Both the position numbers and the translations under genes were made by a program. DNA of 64,000 bases from an uncultured Acidobacteriia bacterium. GTDB lineage: Bacteria > Acidobacteriota > Terriglobia > Bryobacterales > Bryobacteraceae. Of the stretch, positions 19,444 to 30,392 are shown one piece after another. A model generated the notes under the pieces. The model did not search any database, was not told the DNA's origin, and worked only from the letters and a program-made list of their open reading frames with translations. The stretch spans positions 1-64,000 of the forward strand of contig CAIVPR010000078.1 in NCBI GenBank assembly GCA_903907865.1, written 5' to 3'. Numbering within the stretch: position 1 is the first letter of the stretch; each line of letters opens with the position of its first letter.

Positions 19444-21873
19444 TCACTTGCTGATGAGAAAGTAGCCTGCCCAAGCTACGGGACCACCGGCTCTTGCATT
19501 CGATGGCGACGCCCCGCGCCGTATAGCAAGCAGCTGGGCTTTTTGGAGCGCGAATGCCGAGCCCTTTCCCGGCGCGGCTCGAAGCGCCGCATAGAAATCC
19601 AGCATGAAGTTCTTCGCGCCCTCGTCGGCGATGTCCCATTGGGTAGCAAGGACACCTCCGGCCCCGGCTCCGATCCACGCCCGCGTGAGCCCCATCAACC
19701 CGGCGCTCGGGAGCGAGTCGCCTTGAGCCGAATGGCAGCCATCCAGTACGATCAAGCTGGCACTAACGGGCCGCGCCACAATTTCCTTCGGGCCCAGCAG
19801 ACCAATGCCACCGCTGGAATCAAGGCTTAGGGCAAGCATGCCCGACCGGAAATCCCCTGGAGCGCTCACCACGTGGGTGGCGAAATGCACGATGGCAGGT
19901 TTGTTCCGCATGGCATCCCGGACTCCATCCAGCGTGGCGGCGGTGCCGGTCAGAAGCCGCGACTTGCCGGCACCCCAGTTGGAAGTACATGCCTGGACCT
20001 CGTCGGCTGTGCCGGGAAGCCTGGGCAGGACGAGACCCGCCGCGCGGGAAGGTCCTTGGTAACGCTTGTCCGCCGGATTGTAGACGGGATCTCCCACGGC
20101 CAGAATACCGCCATCCAAGGGAACCGTACGACCTTGCAGCAAGAGGGCGCTTGGGATCGTCTGGATGGCCGCGCGCTCGACAAGATGTATGGCCCGCCCT
20201 TTTTCCCGGTCGGCCACCAAGGCCGCGAACGGCAGTTCGTACAGCGGCCCGTCCAGTTCCAGGAGCCAGTGCTCCTTCGCCAGGAGAGACGCGGGAACCT
20301 GCCCAAACAATTCGCCATATAGGGTGGAGGCTAAGTCGTCGGACGGATTCCCGGCTGTGATCTGTTTGCGGAATTCCGCAATCTCGGCCTTGAGATGGCC
20401 CAAGTCGGGCAGCGGCCAAGTCGCAACATGTTGCCGGTCAACGGCCCATAGCCAGGAACTGGTGGCTGTCACATGGAAACTGAACAAAACGCTGTCGGGT
20501 GCCAGCACCTTTTGAATATGGTCCAGCGGGGATTCCGCGGACGCCCCCGCCTGCGCCTCAGGGGTGGTGTCCGCCGCTTGCACCTCGATCTGCTGCAGTT
20601 GCTTTCCCACCGCGTCGGCATCCAACGCAGGTGAAGAGCCAGCAGCTGATGTGCCGGACTGGCCCAGTGCGGTCCGTTGCAGGGCCTGGTAGCGGGAAAG
20701 GAGGGTCCAGTAGTGCGGAGGAAGGCGGCTGCGCCAATCGTTCGGACTCGGGACGAGCGCACGGAGACTCCACAGCCGGTCTTGCTCGGCCACATCGAAG
20801 GTTTCGCGCAGCAGGTTGCCGTCCCCGGATCGTCGCGCGATGCGGTTGCCTGCCTCCACAAATCCTTCGTAGACGAGGTTGAGGCCGTTGGACTCGAGGG
20901 CCACCCGATCCTGGTCGGCTGGAATGATGTCGGCGCGCATGGCGTTGGCCACGCGTCGGCCTTCGCGGAAGTCCGCGAGGGCACCGGCAAAGTCTCCTTG
21001 TGATGTGCGGAACCGGCCGCGCTCCAGATATATCCCCCATCGCGGGTTGACACCCGGGGGAGCCGCGAGTGCGGCGGCGAAGAGCGCGGTGGCAGCCGCC
21101 GAGTCACCCTGACGGGCCCGCAACCTAGCCAACTGTTCCAGAATGGCGGCCACGTCGCCAATATTGTGCAGGCGTGCGATTCGCAGGGACTCGCCCAGCG
21201 CCCATTCCGCCAAGCCCGGCCTATTGGCGTCGAGACTGTGGAGGCCCAGGGTTGCCAGCGCGATCATGGCGAGTTGGAACTTGCCCTGGTCGACAAAGTC
21301 ATTGATTCCCTCGTGATAGGCCTGCTCGGAATCGTCAAACCGGTTCTGCTTTGCCAGAGCGTCCGCCAATTGGCAGCGGAGCGCGGCGCGTGTGGGAGGG
21401 TAGGCGTTGATCTCGGGGCGCGCCAAGGATTGCAACGCGATTTGAATGCTATTTGTTGGCTGGCCGATCTGGAGATAGGTGCTTGCCAGATTGTTCGCGG
21501 CACCGAAGGCCGGGCCCATTTCTCCCGACGCCTCTGCCAAGGCTTTAGACTTCTGGAAGTCGGCTACGGCGGCGCGGTATTGCCTTAGAACGAGGGAGCA
21601 GGCGCCCGTGTTGTTCCAGTACCATGCGGCCTCGCGCCTCAAGCCGCGTTTTTCAGCCAGAACCGCGACCGACCGGAAGGCTTCGCGAGCCTCGAAGTAT
21701 TTTGCGCCGCCGTAAAGCTTGACTCCAACATCGCCAAGACGACGCACTTCGGCGACCGCCCCGGTTGTTGCTGTCACGCGGCTTCCGGCGGCTCCTTTGG
21801 AGCCCGTCAGAAGGACTGCGCCGACCGACAACACGGCAAGCGTACAAATTGTTCTCGTTCGAACAGAACCCAT
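19444..21873 (-). CDS. TPR-CHAT domain putative cysteine protease, secreted
   Basis: An 809-residue protein. The N-terminus is a signal or anchor sequence (TICTLAVLSVGAVLLTG, with Cys11), followed by about eight TPR-like helix pairs (50-340; for example YFEAREAFRSVAVLAEKRGL and YRAAVADFQKSKALAEASGE), a linker, and a C-terminal CHAT (caspase-HetF-associated) domain from about 465. The catalytic dyad is visible: His667 (IVHFATHVV) and Cys713 (VLDGCHSA). CHAT proteins cleave protein targets, and TPRs usually bind the partner. A signal-like N-terminus suggests it acts in the periplasm. A separate small transcription unit with a terminator lies directly upstream. The target is unknown. Confidence 0.85.
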   Translation of the reverse strand: MGSVRTRTICTLAVLSVGAVLLTGSKGAAGSRVTATTGAVAEVRRLGDVGVKLYGGAKYFEAREAFRSVAVLAEKRGLRREAAWYWNNTGACSLVLRQYRAAVADFQKSKALAEASGEMGPAFGAANNLASTYLQIGQPTNSIQIALQSLARPEINAYPPTRAALRCQLADALAKQNRFDDSEQAYHEGINDFVDQGKFQLAMIALATLGLHSLDANRPGLAEWALGESLRIARLHNIGDVAAILEQLARLRARQGDSAAATALFAAALAAPPGVNPRWGIYLERGRFRTSQGDFAGALADFREGRRVANAMRADIIPADQDRVALESNGLNLVYEGFVEAGNRIARRSGDGNLLRETFDVAEQDRLWSLRALVPSPNDWRSRLPPHYWTLLSRYQALQRTALGQSGTSAAGSSPALDADAVGKQLQQIEVQAADTTPEAQAGASAESPLDHIQKVLAPDSVLFSFHVTATSSWLWAVDRQHVATWPLPDLGHLKAEIAEFRKQITAGNPSDDLASTLYGELFGQVPASLLAKEHWLLELDGPLYELPFAALVADREKGRAIHLVERAAIQTIPSALLLQGRTVPLDGGILAVGDPVYNPADKRYQGPSRAAGLVLPRLPGTADEVQACTSNWGAGKSRLLTGTAATLDGVRDAMRNKPAIVHFATHVVSAPGDFRSGMLALSLDSSGGIGLLGPKEIVARPVSASLIVLDGCHSAQGDSLPSAGLMGLTRAWIGAGAGGVLATQWDIADEGAKNFMLDFYAALRAAPGKGSAFALQKAQLLAIRRGASPSNARAGGPVAWAGYFLISK

Positions 21874-24654: not shown

Positions 24655-24691
24655 CCGCCCGCTACAATTGTGTTTCGCATGACGGGTGAAT

Positions 24692-25534
24692 ATGAGGGTT
24701 GAGATCGACGGAATCACGCTGCACTTGGCGCATCCGGATGTCCTGCCGACCAGATGGGTCGGACAGGAGGATTTGATGCGGCAATTGCTGGCCGCCTGGA
24801 TGGTGGTCGGCGCGGCCGATGTACCCATGAGTCCGCGATTGGTGGGCAAGCCGGGTGTCGGCAAGACGACACTGGCCTATGCGGCGGCCACCCGGCTCGG
24901 CCAAGAGGTCTTCATCATGCAGGCGACGCTGGACACTCGTCCGGAAGACCTGCTGGTGACGCCGGTGCTGGAAGGCGCAGGGAAGCTTCGGTACGTGGCG
25001 TCCCCTCTGGTGAGCGCCATGATCCGGGGCGGCATCGCGATCCTCGACGAAGGCAACCGCATGAGCGAAAAAAGCTGGGCCAGCCTCGCTCCGCTGCTCG
25101 ACAACCGCCGCTACGTGGAGAGCATCGTGGCGGGCGTCAAGATCCACGCCCACCCGCAGTTCCGGCTCGTCACAACGATGAATGACGACGCCTCGACGTT
25201 CGAACTGCCCGAATACATCCACTCGCGGCTCCAGCCGCAGATCCTGATCGACTTCCCCGAGAAGGAGGAGGAGTACCGGATTCTCAAGGAAAACCTGCCC
25301 TTCGCCGAGGAGCATGTCCTAAAGTACGTGGCCGATTTCCTCGAGCAGGCCCACGCCGCCGACGAGCGCTACAGCGTGCGCGACGGCATCAACATCGCCC
25401 GCTACGCCACCAAGCTTTCGGCCTTCGCCACCGAGCCGGTGCACGAACGGCTGGCGCTGGAGACGGCGGTGCTGCAGACCCTGGGCGCGGAGGCGATCCG
25501 GTATGCCCGGAGACACCGGCACGTCATTTCCTGA
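24692..25534 (+). CDS. MoxR-type AAA+ ATPase
   Basis: A 280-residue AAA+ ATPase. Walker A is GKPGVGKTT (52-60), Walker B AILDEGNR (116-123) with Asp119-Glu120, sensor 1 is TTMND (161-165), and the arginine-finger candidate is Arg179 in IHSRLQP. The order and lack of extra domains fit MoxR-group ATPases, which remodel or insert cofactors into partner proteins. The classic partner is a von Willebrand A protein, which is absent here. The 3' end overlaps the next gene by 32 bases, so the two are one unit. An in-frame GTG at 24686 is an alternative start. Confidence 0.85.
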   Translation: MRVEIDGITLHLAHPDVLPTRWVGQEDLMRQLLAAWMVVGAADVPMSPRLVGKPGVGKTTLAYAAATRLGQEVFIMQATLDTRPEDLLVTPVLEGAGKLRYVASPLVSAMIRGGIAILDEGNRMSEKSWASLAPLLDNRRYVESIVAGVKIHAHPQFRLVTTMNDDASTFELPEYIHSRLQPQILIDFPEKEEEYRILKENLPFAEEHVLKYVADFLEQAHAADERYSVRDGINIARYATKLSAFATEPVHERLALETAVLQTLGAEAIRYARRHRHVIS

Positions 25535-27392
25535 TTTCGCACTGCCCGATTTCTCCAGCCTGCAGCGCGGGCCGTACACCTATGTCCCGGTGGTCCCCGG
25601 GCGGATGGAGTTCGCCATCGAGGTGCGTCGTCGGATTCTGGCAGAGCGTCCCCAAGTGGTCGCCCTGGAATTGCCCGAGACGCTGGCCCGCGCCTATCGG
25701 GAAGCGATCAAGCGGCTGCCCGCCATTTCCGTGATCTTCTACGGCGACGCGATGGCGCGGGTCGGAGCCTACCGCGACGAGGACGAGATGGACGGCGCGG
25801 TCTACGTGCCCGTGGAACCCTGCGATCCGTTCGTCGAGGCGCTCCGGAGCGCGGCGGAAATCGGTGCCGAGATCGTCTTCGCGGACCCCGATTCCACGGA
25901 GCGCCCCCACATTCCCGACACCTACCCGGATACCTACGCGCTCAACACCATTCCGGCGGCGAAGTACATCGAGGCCTACCGGCTGCAGCCGCAGGCGCGG
26001 ACGCCCGAGATCGAGGAATTCGCGCAGGGTGTGGCATGGAAGCTTCAGGGCGTGGACCCTTTCGCCCGCGTGATGGTGGTGGTGTCGTTGAACATGCTGG
26101 ACCCGGTGCTGGACGCGATGGAAATGCCGCAGTCGGAGCCGGTGCGGAGGCGTCGGCAGGATCTGCAACTGGTGAACCCGCACCCCGATTGTCTAGGGGA
26201 AATCACGTCCGAATATCCATTCCTGCAGGAGCGCTACGAGGGTTGGCGGGTGGAGATGGCCGACCCGGGAGCCATGGACCGCAGGCTGGTGCAATTCGCG
26301 CTGCTTCAGGAGGCCGGAGTTTCGTACCAGTTGAATACCGGAGAGACGCTGCAATTGTGGCAGCGCCGGTTGCTGGCGCGTTACAGCCGGAGTCTGGCTG
26401 CGGTGCACGGGGACCTGGCGGCGTCGCTGCACGAGATCGTAGTGGCGGCACGGTCCATCGTGGACGAGAATTTCGCGTGGGATGTCTGGGAGACAGCGTC
26501 GAAGTATTCGGCGCAGGAATCTTCGGGTCCGCTGGAGACCGTGCATATTTCGGGTGACGAGGTGTGGCTGAACACGCGGCGTATCCGGTTGCGGCGGCGT
26601 CTGCCCAGCATGAAACGGCGGATGACGATCCCCGGCTTGAAGCCGCGCAAGAAGGAGAAAAAGCCCGGCGAGTGGGCGGCCGCCAACAACGGGGCCAGCA
26701 TCTGCTCGTTCCCTCCAGAGGATCTGGTGATCGAGAACTTCGGCCGCTACCTCAAGAAGAAGGGGAAGGGCATGCTGAGCGAGGAGCGGGCGACGGTGGA
26801 GCCGTTCACTTCGTCCATCCTCGACGGCATCGATCTGCGCGAGACCATGCGCAACTGGCATGAAGGCCAAGATCATCAGAAAAAGATCTTTGTCCGCAAC
26901 ATGCAGAAAATCCATGGCGACGTCGGGTCCATCATCGTGATCTTCGACGACGACCGCGACGGGCGCTACACCTACCAGACCACTTGGCTGGGCGAGCACC
27001 AGAACGAGTCCGACATGGCCTTCTATTCCACGCCGCCGTTCGAGCACATGGTGGGACCGGGAATCGGGCGCGCCGAGTACGGCGGTTTCCTGATGAGCCT
27101 TCCGGCGCGCAGGATGTATGACGTTTGGGCCGACAGCGACTACGACATGGCGGAATCGAAGGCCGAGCGGCTGTTGTTGGCGGGCCTGGATTACTCCATC
27201 GAGAAATACGTCGTCTATGCGGCCGCGAAACCCCCGCGCTCCGTATTCCGCAACGTGGCGGCGAGGTTCGGGCGGACGATTGTGTATGTGCCGATCGGGC
27301 AGCTTTCGCCGGTAACGCTGAAGAAGCTGCGGGTAGTGCATGTGCTCGACGGGTACGAGCGGCGCGAGGGGGCCAAAGAGTACATCTGGTAG
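25503..27392 (+). CDS. Unrecognised 629-residue partner of MoxR ATPase
   Basis: I cannot assign a family. The first 150 residues (VVPGRMEFAIEVRRRILAER, then VVALELPET, VYVPVEPCDPFVEALRSAAE, AEIVFADPD) loosely resemble the TIKI/ChaN/EreA-like fold, in which a Glu-Leu-Pro strand and a later PxxP-like strand recur; the expected early His is not seen, so this is weak. A basic segment (365-395: RIRLRRRLPSMKRR, KPRKKEKK) separates a C-terminal domain with VGSIIVIFDDDRDG and GIGRAEYGGFLMSLPARRM. No signal peptide, membrane helix or MIDAS motif is present. It begins inside the MoxR gene with GAGGCG upstream of the ATG, and ends 5 bases from the convergent pstS-like gene. Confidence 0.8.
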   Translation: MPGDTGTSFPDFALPDFSSLQRGPYTYVPVVPGRMEFAIEVRRRILAERPQVVALELPETLARAYREAIKRLPAISVIFYGDAMARVGAYRDEDEMDGAVYVPVEPCDPFVEALRSAAEIGAEIVFADPDSTERPHIPDTYPDTYALNTIPAAKYIEAYRLQPQARTPEIEEFAQGVAWKLQGVDPFARVMVVVSLNMLDPVLDAMEMPQSEPVRRRRQDLQLVNPHPDCLGEITSEYPFLQERYEGWRVEMADPGAMDRRLVQFALLQEAGVSYQLNTGETLQLWQRRLLARYSRSLAAVHGDLAASLHEIVVAARSIVDENFAWDVWETASKYSAQESSGPLETVHISGDEVWLNTRRIRLRRRLPSMKRRMTIPGLKPRKKEKKPGEWAAANNGASICSFPPEDLVIENFGRYLKKKGKGMLSEERATVEPFTSSILDGIDLRETMRNWHEGQDHQKKIFVRNMQKIHGDVGSIIVIFDDDRDGRYTYQTTWLGEHQNESDMAFYSTPPFEHMVGPGIGRAEYGGFLMSLPARRMYDVWADSDYDMAESKAERLLLAGLDYSIEKYVVYAAAKPPRSVFRNVAARFGRTIVYVPIGQLSPVTLKKLRVVHVLDGYERREGAKEYIW

Positions 27393-27397
27393 GGGGC

Positions 27398-28867
27398 CTA
27401 CTCCAAGCGGGCGATGTCGGCTTCTACCTTGGCGACCACTTCCTTCGGCAACGCTAGGTAGCCCAGTGCCGCCGCTTGCCGCTGTCCAGGTCCCGTGGCC
27501 CAGCGCAGGAATGCCGCCATCGCTCGGCGTTTGGCGGGTTCCGCCGGATGCGCCGGGACGACGAGCCAAGTGAACGACGAGATGGGGTAGGCACCGGGTC
27601 CGGGAGCATTGACGATGGACGCCGTCATTACGCCGTTAGGTCCGACTGCTCGGCGCGCGGCCGCAGCGATGCTGTCCAGGCTGGCACCCACGAATTCGCC
27701 CTCCTGATTGCGAACTTTGCCGAAGTTGAGATGGTTCTGCACCGCGTAGGTGAACTCGACGTATCCGATGGCACCGCCGAACTCCTTCACCTCCGTCGCG
27801 ACACCTTCATTGCCAACTCCCGAACGCCCGACAGGCCAGGCCGGATTCATTCCGGTACCAACCTTGGCTTTCCACTCCGCGCTGGTCTGCGCAAGGAAGT
27901 CGGTCCAGACGTAGCTGGTCCCGCTACCATCGCGGCGGTGGATGACCGTGATGTCGAGGTCCGGTAGGTGCAGCTTGGGGTTGGCGGCGCGGAGGGCCGG
28001 GTCGTTCCACTTCTTGATCTTGCCGAGGTAGATGCCGACGAGGATGGCGGGGGTGAAGTCGATGTCGCCGCTGACGCCCGGCAGGTTCATGATCGGCACC
28101 ACGGCCCCGACGGCGGACGGGAAGAGGACGAATTTGTCTTCTTGCCCCGGTGCGAGCAGGTGGATCGCGTCGGGACTGTCAGAAGCCCCGAAATCCACCT
28201 CGCCAGCGAGGAGTCTGCGGATTCCGGCCTCCGATCCCACCGGCTCGTAAATAAGCTCAACGTCCGGATTCGTGCGGTGGTAGTTGGCGAACCACTTGGT
28301 GTAGAGCGGGTAGGGGAAGGTGGCTCCCGCGCCCTTGAGTTCGACGGTGCCGTGTCCGGGGGCCGCTACGGGCCTCGACGGCTTCGGGAAGCCTTGCTGG
28401 ACCGCCTTTGCAACCTGCTTCGAGATCTGCTTGGAGAGGTTGCCGTAGATGTCGTCAGTCGCGGTATTCGGCGTCACGAGGTACGACCAAAGGGTTTCGC
28501 CCTGTTTATCACGCAGTTCGACGGAGAGGAAACCGCCGTAGACGGGCTTTCCGTTGCGCGGATAGCGGGGGGCGCGTGGATTGAGGGTGCTGTAGCCGCG
28601 CACCCAAACTTCGCCGCCGCCGCCGAGGACGAGGTCTGCTGCGGATTCCTTCAGCGCCAGTTGGACCGAGCCAAGTTTGCGGAGTTCGGCGACGACCCCG
28701 GATCGGAGTTCCTCCGAGCCCTGTCTCGTGGTGAACGGTTCCACGAAGAGTCTCGTTGAGGTCGCCGGGGACTGGGCCTCGGCAAGCGGACAAACGAGCG
28801 CGATGCAGAAGAGGAGCGCTGGACGGAGCGTCCTCCCAAGTGTTCGCCGGGGCGTCCGGGCGGTCAT
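27398..28867 (-). CDS. PstS-like phosphate-binding protein with extra N-terminal domain
   Basis: A 489-residue exported protein. After a signal peptide (LRPALLFCIALVCPLAEA) comes an unassigned domain of about 140 residues (RLFVEPFTTRQGSEELRSGV, LVLGGGGEVWVRGYS), then a PstS-type solute-binding domain from about residue 170: LKGAGATFPYPLYTKWF, GEVDFGASDSPD, RRDGSGTSYVWTDFL, with the phosphate-loop residues Thr/Ser and Asp in place. PstS normally delivers phosphate to PstCAB, but no pst permease genes are in the window. The extra domain roughly lengthens it by half over usual PstS. It is divergent from a porin gene. Confidence 0.83.
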   Translation of the reverse strand: MTARTPRRTLGRTLRPALLFCIALVCPLAEAQSPATSTRLFVEPFTTRQGSEELRSGVVAELRKLGSVQLALKESAADLVLGGGGEVWVRGYSTLNPRAPRYPRNGKPVYGGFLSVELRDKQGETLWSYLVTPNTATDDIYGNLSKQISKQVAKAVQQGFPKPSRPVAAPGHGTVELKGAGATFPYPLYTKWFANYHRTNPDVELIYEPVGSEAGIRRLLAGEVDFGASDSPDAIHLLAPGQEDKFVLFPSAVGAVVPIMNLPGVSGDIDFTPAILVGIYLGKIKKWNDPALRAANPKLHLPDLDITVIHRRDGSGTSYVWTDFLAQTSAEWKAKVGTGMNPAWPVGRSGVGNEGVATEVKEFGGAIGYVEFTYAVQNHLNFGKVRNQEGEFVGASLDSIAAAARRAVGPNGVMTASIVNAPGPGAYPISSFTWLVVPAHPAEPAKRRAMAAFLRWATGPGQRQAAALGYLALPKEVVAKVEADIARLE

Positions 28868-28930
28868 GGTGTCGTTGGGTGATGCCGTGGGCAATTCTTC
28901 ATCCTTGCATCCACCGGAGCTCTATAAGTT

Positions 28931-28951
28931 ACTGGACGGTGACAGTCCAGT
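28931..28951. promoter_or_regulatory. Inverted repeat between pstS-like and porin genes
   Basis: ACTGGAC-GGTGACA-GTCCAGT, a perfect 7-base palindrome around a 7-base spacer, in the divergent gap. It is placed to act as an operator for one or both genes. It does not match the E. coli Pho box direct repeats, so phosphate control is only inferred from the neighbours. Confidence 0.45.
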
Positions 28952-30392
28952 GAATTGTTCTCAAGAGGTTGCCGGATCGGTTGACACTCCCCCGCCGCGT
29001 GCCCAACGATGGGAGAGTCTGCGTATACTTCTCGCACTTCTGATGCTGTTGCCATGGCCGGCGTGTGCCCAGGAGACGGTACCCCTGCAGGCGACGGATC
29101 CGGAGACATTGTGGGATCGGCTCTGGGTCTCCGGCCAAGTGAATGTCATCCGCCAGCAGCACGGGGCGTTTCCAGCCAAATACAGCGGAGACAACAGCCT
29201 TCAACCGGAGAAGGAGCAGGCGACGTCCCGCGTGATGACGCTGTACACCGGGTTCCAGATCTCGAAGCACTTGGAAATCCTCGCGGATTTCGAGACTGCG
29301 GGTGGTGGCGGTATTAGCAACGCGTTGGGGGCTGCCGGGTTCACCAATGTCGACGTGGTGCGGAATCCCACCTTGGGCACGGCACCGTACGTGTCCCGGA
29401 TCATGCTCCACTACACGGTGCCGCTGGGCCGGGAAACGACGGAAAGCACGCGGAGCCCGATGGCGCTGGCTTCAACGGTTCCGGTCCGGCGGTTGGAATT
29501 GCGCTACGGGAAGATCAGCACGGTTGATTTCTTCGACCTGAACTCGGTGGGCAGCGACAGCCACCTGCAGTTCATGAATTGGGGCCTGGTCAATAACGGT
29601 GCCTTCGACTATGCCGCCGACACACGCGGCTACACCTACGGCTTGGTGGCGGAACTCTACGATAAAAACTGGACCGCACGCTACGCCAACCTCCTGATGC
29701 CCACGGTGGCCAACGGGATCCAACTCGACTGGAACATCGCACGGGCACGCGCCGATAATTTCGAGTTCGAGTACCGGCCCGGGTTGCTCCCGAAACGCGC
29801 CACCGTCTTGCGGGCGCTATATTTCATCAACCACGCCAACATGGGCCGCTACCGCGACGCGGTCAACGGATACCTTGCCGGCAAGGACTTGGTGCCTGAC
29901 ATCACCGCCTACCGCAAGCAGGGGCGCGTAAAGTATGGATTCGGGTTGAACGTGGAGCAGGAGATGACGCCGCTGCTGCGGGTCTTCGGCCGGTTGGGGT
30001 GGAACGACGGGGTCAATGAGTCATACGCCTACACGGAGATCGACCGGACGGGCCAAATCGGTGCCGACCTCCGGGGCAAGCCATGGCGGCGGTCGGAGGA
30101 CAAGCTCGGTGCCGCGTTCGTGACGAATGGGATTTCCGGCGACCACCGGCGCTATCTGTCGTTGGGCGGCGTCGGGTTCATCATTGGCGACGGCGGGTTG
30201 CGCTACGGACTGGAGCAGGTCTTCGAAACCTACTACACGGCGCACCTGTGGCGCGGCATATCGATCGCGGGAGACTACCAGCACGTGTCGAACCCAGGCT
30301 ACAACCGGGACCGTGGACCTGTTTCGGTCTGGAGCCTTCGCCTCCATTTGGAGGATGCGGTGCCGTTCGAGAGGCTGGGGCGCCGGAAGTAG
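28950..30392 (+). CDS. OprB-like carbohydrate porin
   Basis: An outer-membrane barrel of about 480 residues. A signal peptide (LRILLALLMLLPWPACAQ) is followed by many alternating strands, and the C-terminus NPGYNRDRGPVSVWSLRLH is the OprB-family end motif. Internal motifs such as RRLELRYGKISTVDFFDLNS also fit. The start is uncertain: GTG 28950 gives a long n-region, ATG 28866 would overlap the divergent gene, and a start nearer 29020 would suit the signal peptide but needs a rare codon. Being opposite a PstS-like gene it could be a phosphate or sugar channel. Confidence 0.75.
   Translation: MNCSQEVAGSVDTPPPRAQRWESLRILLALLMLLPWPACAQETVPLQATDPETLWDRLWVSGQVNVIRQQHGAFPAKYSGDNSLQPEKEQATSRVMTLYTGFQISKHLEILADFETAGGGGISNALGAAGFTNVDVVRNPTLGTAPYVSRIMLHYTVPLGRETTESTRSPMALASTVPVRRLELRYGKISTVDFFDLNSVGSDSHLQFMNWGLVNNGAFDYAADTRGYTYGLVAELYDKNWTARYANLLMPTVANGIQLDWNIARARADNFEFEYRPGLLPKRATVLRALYFINHANMGRYRDAVNGYLAGKDLVPDITAYRKQGRVKYGFGLNVEQEMTPLLRVFGRLGWNDGVNESYAYTEIDRTGQIGADLRGKPWRRSEDKLGAAFVTNGISGDHRRYLSLGGVGFIIGDGGLRYGLEQVFETYYTAHLWRGISIAGDYQHVSNPGYNRDRGPVSVWSLRLHLEDAVPFERLGRRK

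Follow-up and report, generated by a model that had tools for sequence, protein, structure and literature searches.

MoxR-type AAA+ ATPases have the gene of a VWA cofactor generally near their own, a tendency that PMC3893208 gives as general, not universal, and MoxR proteins are there divided into seven subfamilies. The window analysed here, a stretch of 64,000 nucleotides from the 7.5 Mb genome of an uncultured Acidobacteriia bacterium, contains a MoxR gene overlapped by the gene of a 629-aa protein, and raises the question of what kind of machine such a pair encodes. An initial annotation had described the two as a self-contained unit with an unrecognised partner. Because the pair proves to be co-inherited and the usual VWA helper is absent beside the genes, it seems to represent a branch, not described before, of a machine type that is already known.

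A co-inherited pair of genes

The MoxR-type gene (24692..25534, + strand) encodes 280 aa, or 282 aa if a possible alternative GTG start at 24686 is used, and the partner gene (25503..27392, also +) encodes 629 aa. Both ORFs are present as first annotated, with an overlap of 32 bases. The ATPase matches Pfam AAA_5 (E 4e-21). Both genes are under purifying selection relative to the nearest relative (G015), with dN 0.035, dS 0.924 and dN/dS ~0.04 for MoxR and dN 0.082, dS 1.224 and dN/dS ~0.07 for the partner; two further genome pairs gave dN/dS of 0.07–0.12. Since 31 homologues align with the 629-aa protein at 50–88% identity, this ORF has not arisen by chance. One partner match among those in relatives (G027) contains an internal stop.

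The two genes were searched for with identical settings in 396 phylum genomes. The partner was found in 23 and the MoxR subtype (>400 bits) in 22, all of them among those 23; in the only partner-bearing genome without MoxR (G347) the contig with the partner is 4,566 bases long and breaks off ~300 bases upstream of the gene. Among 61 genomes (the window's own and 60 relatives) the partner and the MoxR subtype were each detected in 41, with 40 in common. In one mismatch (G039) all that is present is a fragment of the partner at the edge of a contig. The other (G053) lacks the partner, and its MoxR gene is interrupted by a stop in frame; it looks like a decayed relic, a draft-assembly error being possible. 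Within the window’s family (f1) the partner occurs in 36 of 37 genomes, in one copy each and in some as fragments at contig ends, and the one family genome lacking a match is 62% complete. Pairwise distances of MoxR and partner are correlated (r 0.84, n=31, 0 of 2000 permutations as high), a value to which the genomes’ shared ancestry contributes. MoxR and its partner form a single co-inherited unit.

Gene neighbourhoods were compared at 43 loci, comprising 19 from the family, four from family f3 and 20 distant ones (including a plasmid and one contig of a viral collection). They consist of the window itself, the plasmid, the viral-collection contig, 20 regions taken from the 40 further genomes with a match among relatives, and another 20 from 19 of the 22 other matched phylum genomes (G339, G347 and G376 left out). 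MoxR was present within 39 of the loci, adjoining the partner in 38 and lying at 2 kb in one (L095, from G290), where opposite-strand ORFs occupy the space between the genes. The remaining four genomes keep the same MoxR elsewhere (462–522 bits, next best MoxR ≤30 bits). No further neighbour gene was found in more than five of the 43 loci, a count that omits two clusters (39 and 8 loci) of antisense or other-frame ORFs inside the pair, judged from the coordinates of part of their members. Simple regular expressions located a VWA-like motif at four of 43 loci, in a different gene each time and with no recurring VWA neighbour, and a SWIM-like motif at none. The pair thus stands as the self-contained MoxR–partner unit first proposed. 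The window’s genome has three CoxE-like VWA matches away from the locus, one of them above cut-off, so a VWA partner encoded apart from the pair is possible.

Shared operons with the two flanking genes were considered and rejected. A Gfo/Idh/MocA-type gene lies 31–37 bases upstream of the pair in the window; of 26 related loci it adjoins the pair in one, in the closest relative, and a single weak match lies elsewhere. The early statement that the pair has no metabolic neighbours is upheld across relatives. The PstS-like gene downstream adjoins it in none of the 26.

The ATPase and the domains of its partner

The Walker A (GKPGVGKTT) and Walker B (ILDEGNR) motifs of the MoxR protein are invariant in 17 aligned MoxR homologues. 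The same is true of TMN, in the sensor-1 region, and of IHSRLQP, the probable arginine finger, so the ATPase motifs are intact as had been claimed. A profile search of PDB returned Midasin as the nearest solved structure, followed by NorQ and CbbQ, and the MoxR profile scored 34–38 bits against NorQ and 28 bits against the CbbQ type. The NCBIfam GvpN equivalog, from the CGN subfamily, gave 30.6 bits, below its cut-off of 266.8, the comparison being with single CGN members only. Scores were 25.8 bits against E. coli YehL and 25–35 bits against five YehL types, and 123–150 bits (34–36% identity) against MoxR-like proteins of two genomes in the phylum sample (G310 and G122). A quick tree, with long-branch warnings, separates MoxR and YehL into different clades. 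In sequence, the pair’s MoxR is distant from the YehL types and from the single CGN members compared. The protein also matches a PHROGs phage family labelled porphyrin biosynthesis (E 1e-24) and, weakly, PADLOC models (TRIP13, E 1e-5), as AAA proteins may.

Database searches with the partner returned no match in Pfam (E≤1), NCBIfam or PADLOC (E≤5) or PHROGs (E≤0.1), and PDB sequence searches with three partner queries gave best E-values of 0.77 (for the 629-aa protein itself), 0.99 and 0.12. Comparison of profiles was more informative for its N-terminal domain (residues ~24–250; 25572..26252, +). In hhalign the broad partner family matched eight YehM-type proteins at 98.2% (E 5e-14) over 279 columns, the alignment extending to about residue 320; the first 32-row partner alignment reached 85.9% and the window’s clade alone 89.1% (E 2e-6), whereas the same N-terminal profiles scored 0.1–0.3% against MoxR and VWA controls. 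E. coli YehM is itself a DUF5682 protein (331 bits). Single-sequence Pfam scans found a weak DUF5682 match in five of 32 closer members (best E 0.0013) and nine of 31 broader ones (best E 3.4e-6), against a noise scale set by the unrelated Mor family in four of the 32 closer members (best E 0.0045). One member, the best, attains the Pfam cut-off (26.1 vs 26), its match covering 46 positions of the full-length, 727-position DUF5682 model. Profile comparison shows the N-terminal ~250 residues to be a divergent domain of the DUF5682 family, to which YehM belongs. The partner is accordingly not unrecognised throughout: a described MoxR-partner family is matched, DUF5682 with YehM beside the MoxR protein YehL, but through distant homologues and for one domain only.

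In E. coli, yehL is followed directly by yehM and then by the VWA gene yehP and the SWIM gene yehQ. A family search for DUF5682 in Acidobacteriota was positive in nine of 297 phylum genomes and none of 21 relatives. At eight Acidobacteriota DUF5682 loci, judged by motif, a Walker-A ORF is near in five, a MIDAS-motif ORF is near in four and fused in one, and a SWIM-like ORF is near in three; one protein (L114, 1224 aa) is a DUF5682–VWA_CoxE fusion. Our literature search found no paper naming DUF5682, alone or with MoxR.

Three motifs of the domain, H (as in LPVLH), RE and GxxH, are retained in 19 distant partner members and all absent in the 12 of 12 members of the window’s clade, a loss that maps to one change on the tree (branch SH-aLRT 100%). 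The domain in the window’s lineage is probably now without any catalysis. The TIKI motif layout is GxxH with RE/RN..M, and TraB/PrgY/GumN proteins align with the RE..M–GxxH stretch of H-bearing members at 56% (E 1e-4). The TraB/PrgY/GumN profile scored 34.5% against the whole partner family, 9.8% against the YehM types and 0.2% against the window’s clade, with reversed decoys at 0.1–1.5%; TIGR00261 (TraB) matched one of 31 members at E 0.002, while an unrelated model reached E 0.001 in one member. These scores are weaker than the DUF5682 link, so a TIKI-like origin of the N-terminal domain is plausible, not proven. Of the TIKI/ChaN/EreA-like fold suspected initially, a TIKI-like resemblance survives weakly in the H-bearing members and fades in the window’s own clade.

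Beyond this domain lie a middle region and a basic linker (residues ~255–394; 26265..26684, +). Mean pairwise identity is 35.9% in the middle region (255–345) and 31.0% in the linker (346–394), the least conserved stretch of the partner. The C-terminal region (residues 395–629; 26685..27389, +), which ends in YIW, is the most conserved part, at 55.5% mean pairwise identity compared with 35.5% for residues 24–250, indicating that it bears the main constraint. Residues invariant in 31 diverse members include W495, E498, E502, S503, D504, Y508, Y526, D544, D563, R610 and H613. Tails of the 31 members read [YF][ILV]W in 24, IF in one, IP in one, IPT or IPE in two and something more different in three; this end is missing in five members (two sub-clades) and altered in two more.

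In Pfam, NCBIfam and PDB the C-terminal region gave nothing that rises above noise. It was compared with a VWA test set of six YehP-type and four CoxE-type sequences, with decoys and a positive control. VWA profiles gave 0.1–1.6%, decoys 0.1–0.2% and the YehP versus CoxE control 95.9%. A Pfam scan of the 31 members contained no VWA family among its matches, and the partner has no VWA profile match with a DxSxS MIDAS. Within the libraries and profiles searched, the statements that the partner lacks a MIDAS and that its last ~240 residues match nothing known are supported. AlphaFold2 models of the full length and of a C-terminal crop, with seven sequences each, had mean pLDDT of 37 and 39 and were unusable, which makes the fold and docking of this region guesses.

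Spread of the pair and related units

The whole-genome searches covered Acidobacteriota, and the named records that carry the partner are bins of uncultured Acidobacteriia, Terriglobia and Bryobacterales. In Neochlamydia sp. S13, plasmid pS13 carries a partner copy, 35.6% identical, that follows the gene of an AAA ATPase; it is the only match among 72,556 plasmid records. In a quick tree with a composition warning for the plasmid row, this copy falls within Acidobacteriota, adjacent to the two copies of one genome (G271), and its place points to transfer. The partner was also found on two contigs of the viral collection and matched none of 50,697 phage records. One of the two contigs carries genes that, judged by eye, are phage-tail-like and lie on the opposite strand to the partner.

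More distant relatives occur in the phylum sample in G122 and G310, whose related MoxR proteins score 141–163 bits. Near these MoxR-like genes are large proteins whose N-terminal domain is covered by the profile of the 31-member partner family alignment (A5) in three cases (37–54 bits); the three full-length ones that were scanned have no Pfam match. The Walker A of these MoxR-like proteins reads GKN, the C-terminal region of the large proteins has diverged, and a TPR gene adjoins both G310 copies. A DGID/GLD-like stretch is retained in the large proteins and a GEHxxESDM stretch is not. The likeness of the MoxR proteins together with the N-terminal profile matches suggests that a wider set of such units exists.

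Possible mechanism and comparison with known systems

We hypothesize that the two genes encode a MoxR remodelling machine: the partner's C-terminal domain docks in the place of the VWA co-chaperone and its N-terminal domain holds the client. We judge this reading reasonably likely. In this machine the ATPase would form a hexamer, and the conserved 395–629 region with its YIW end would dock on it where the VWA co-chaperone sits in NorQD or RavA–ViaA. The N-terminal domain would hold the client, a role for which its presumed catalytic residues may no longer be needed in the window’s lineage, and ATP-driven movement would remodel or mature a client protein encoded elsewhere than nearby. The NorQD system, as described in PMC13036017, offers a model. 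There the VWA domain inserts a finger into the ring pore, and NorD docks on a NorQ loop through its last residues, so that docking by a C-terminal tail has a precedent; the proposed effect of ATP use is a twisting and stretching of a linker. A bolder proposal, which we put forward tentatively and would not yet back, is that a new co-chaperone domain, formed by the C-terminal 235 residues, replaces VWA on the MoxR ring; this would make the pair an undescribed, VWA-independent MoxR subfamily, fixed in one bacterial family and moved laterally as a two-gene cassette, even to the plasmid of a chlamydial symbiont.

The C-terminal region might instead be a VWA domain without MIDAS, the pair being a YehL–YehM–YehP system in which YehM and YehP have fused and degenerated. 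A DUF5682–VWA fusion is known in the same phylum (the 1224-aa L114), and the best hhalign alignment of A5 with the YehP-type VWA, non-significant in itself, pairs DGIDxRET with the IDxxxTI lead-in and IFDED with the DxSGS strand, with the DGID/GLD-like stretch retained in the related G310 and G122 proteins. A VWA origin, suggested by eye and by this register, is however unsupported by the profile tests with controls; the register is lost with the wider family, and the Pfam matches of the 31 members include no VWA family, leaving this explanation somewhat unlikely. An enzymatic C-terminal region, with the invariant E, S, D, Y, H and R as its active site and MoxR as activase or regulator, would account for residues unchanged across 31 diverse members and for a degree of conservation that clearly exceeds the N-terminal domain's. 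We regard it as unlikely, given that no significant enzyme-family match was obtained for the region and that the related proteins of G310 and G122 have not kept GEHxxESDM, an absence that speaks against catalysis as a universal property.

Defence or conflict is a third role, by analogy with MoxR–VWA ternary systems. The partner’s patchiness outside its home family (20 of the 23 matched genomes, 396 searched), its copies on the Neochlamydia plasmid and on two viral-collection contigs, one beside phage-tail-like genes, and the weak PADLOC matches of MoxR, possible for any AAA protein, would fit such a role. Single copies in 36 of 37 family genomes, some just fragments at contig ends, the lack of a recurring neighbour, a partner with no PADLOC match and its absence from the phage records all speak against it, and we consider it improbable.

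Recent NorQD structures account for the motor by a VWA finger and tail; a MoxR pair apparently without a VWA partner would test which of these features are essential. DUF5682 gains a relative in which it is joined to a region of much higher conservation, and the window’s lineage offers a natural case of a system maintained after the loss of the presumed active-site motifs of DUF5682. Nearly all genomes sampled from one family have the pair, which is small and lacks constant neighbours and should therefore be easy to express and test.

Among known systems, TraB/PrgY/GumN (TIKI-like) proteins share the RE/RN..M ... GxxH stretch that aligns in distant partner members; unlike them, the window’s protein lacks those residues, scores weakly against their profile and has an extra C-terminal region. 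MoxR–VWA ternary conflict systems, described in PMC7159879 with VMAP, iSTAND, FtsH and beta-propeller components, have a MoxR core in common with the pair, which differs in having no VWA or third component common beside it at the 43 loci. RavA/ViaA is likewise a two-gene unit of MoxR and partner (PMC3893208), but ViaA has a VWA domain. The CGN-type MoxR–VWA pairs NorQ/NorD and CbbQ/CbbO differ from ours in that our partner has no recognisable VWA domain and no client gene lies nearby, and resemble it in their single dedicated partner gene, NorQ and CbbQ being the nearest solved MoxR types after Midasin. Compared with E. coli yehLMPQ (MoxR, DUF5682, VWA_CoxE, SWIM) and the Acidobacteriota DUF5682 systems, the pair has no VWA or SWIM gene recurring beside it, its MoxR comes from a branch distant from YehL, and its partner differs in the C-terminal half and, in the window’s lineage, lacks H, RE and GxxH. 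What it shares with them is the order of a MoxR gene followed by a DUF5682-type gene and an N-terminal domain homologous to that part of YehM.

Other genes of the window

A TPR protein with a CHAT (caspase-like) domain at its C-terminus is encoded at 19444-21873 on the minus strand, and no counterpart of this gene was found around the pair in 26 related loci. The window also encodes a PstS-like binding protein (27398-28894, minus strand) and an OprB-type porin (28677-30392, plus strand), the listed ORFs of which overlap at their start ends.

Interrupted and viral-collection copies

In genome G053, an in-frame stop cuts a MoxR gene of the window's subtype (L158:7586-8155). The partner was not found in this genome, and the interrupted gene is possibly a relic. 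A contig from a viral collection (L141) carries the partner at 42% identity close to the contig edge, with phage-tail-like genes adjoining it on the opposite strand; this locus is perhaps a prophage boundary.

Related units and domain families

MoxR-like ATPases akin to that of the window were observed in G310 (loci L160 and L195) and G122 (L161 and L196). All four bear GKN rather than GKT/S in Walker A and are adjoined by large proteins resembling the partner, and in both G310 copies a TPR-repeat gene adjoins the unit.

A single reading frame in another genome (G208:C1:5046234-5046941) is matched by the TraB_PrgY_gumN model at 122 bits and by the DUF5682 model at 23 bits, under the DUF5682 cut-off. 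This double match is a hint of kinship between the two families. In G109 (L114 / L132), DUF5682 and a VWA_CoxE domain that keeps DISGSM are joined in one 1224-aa protein.
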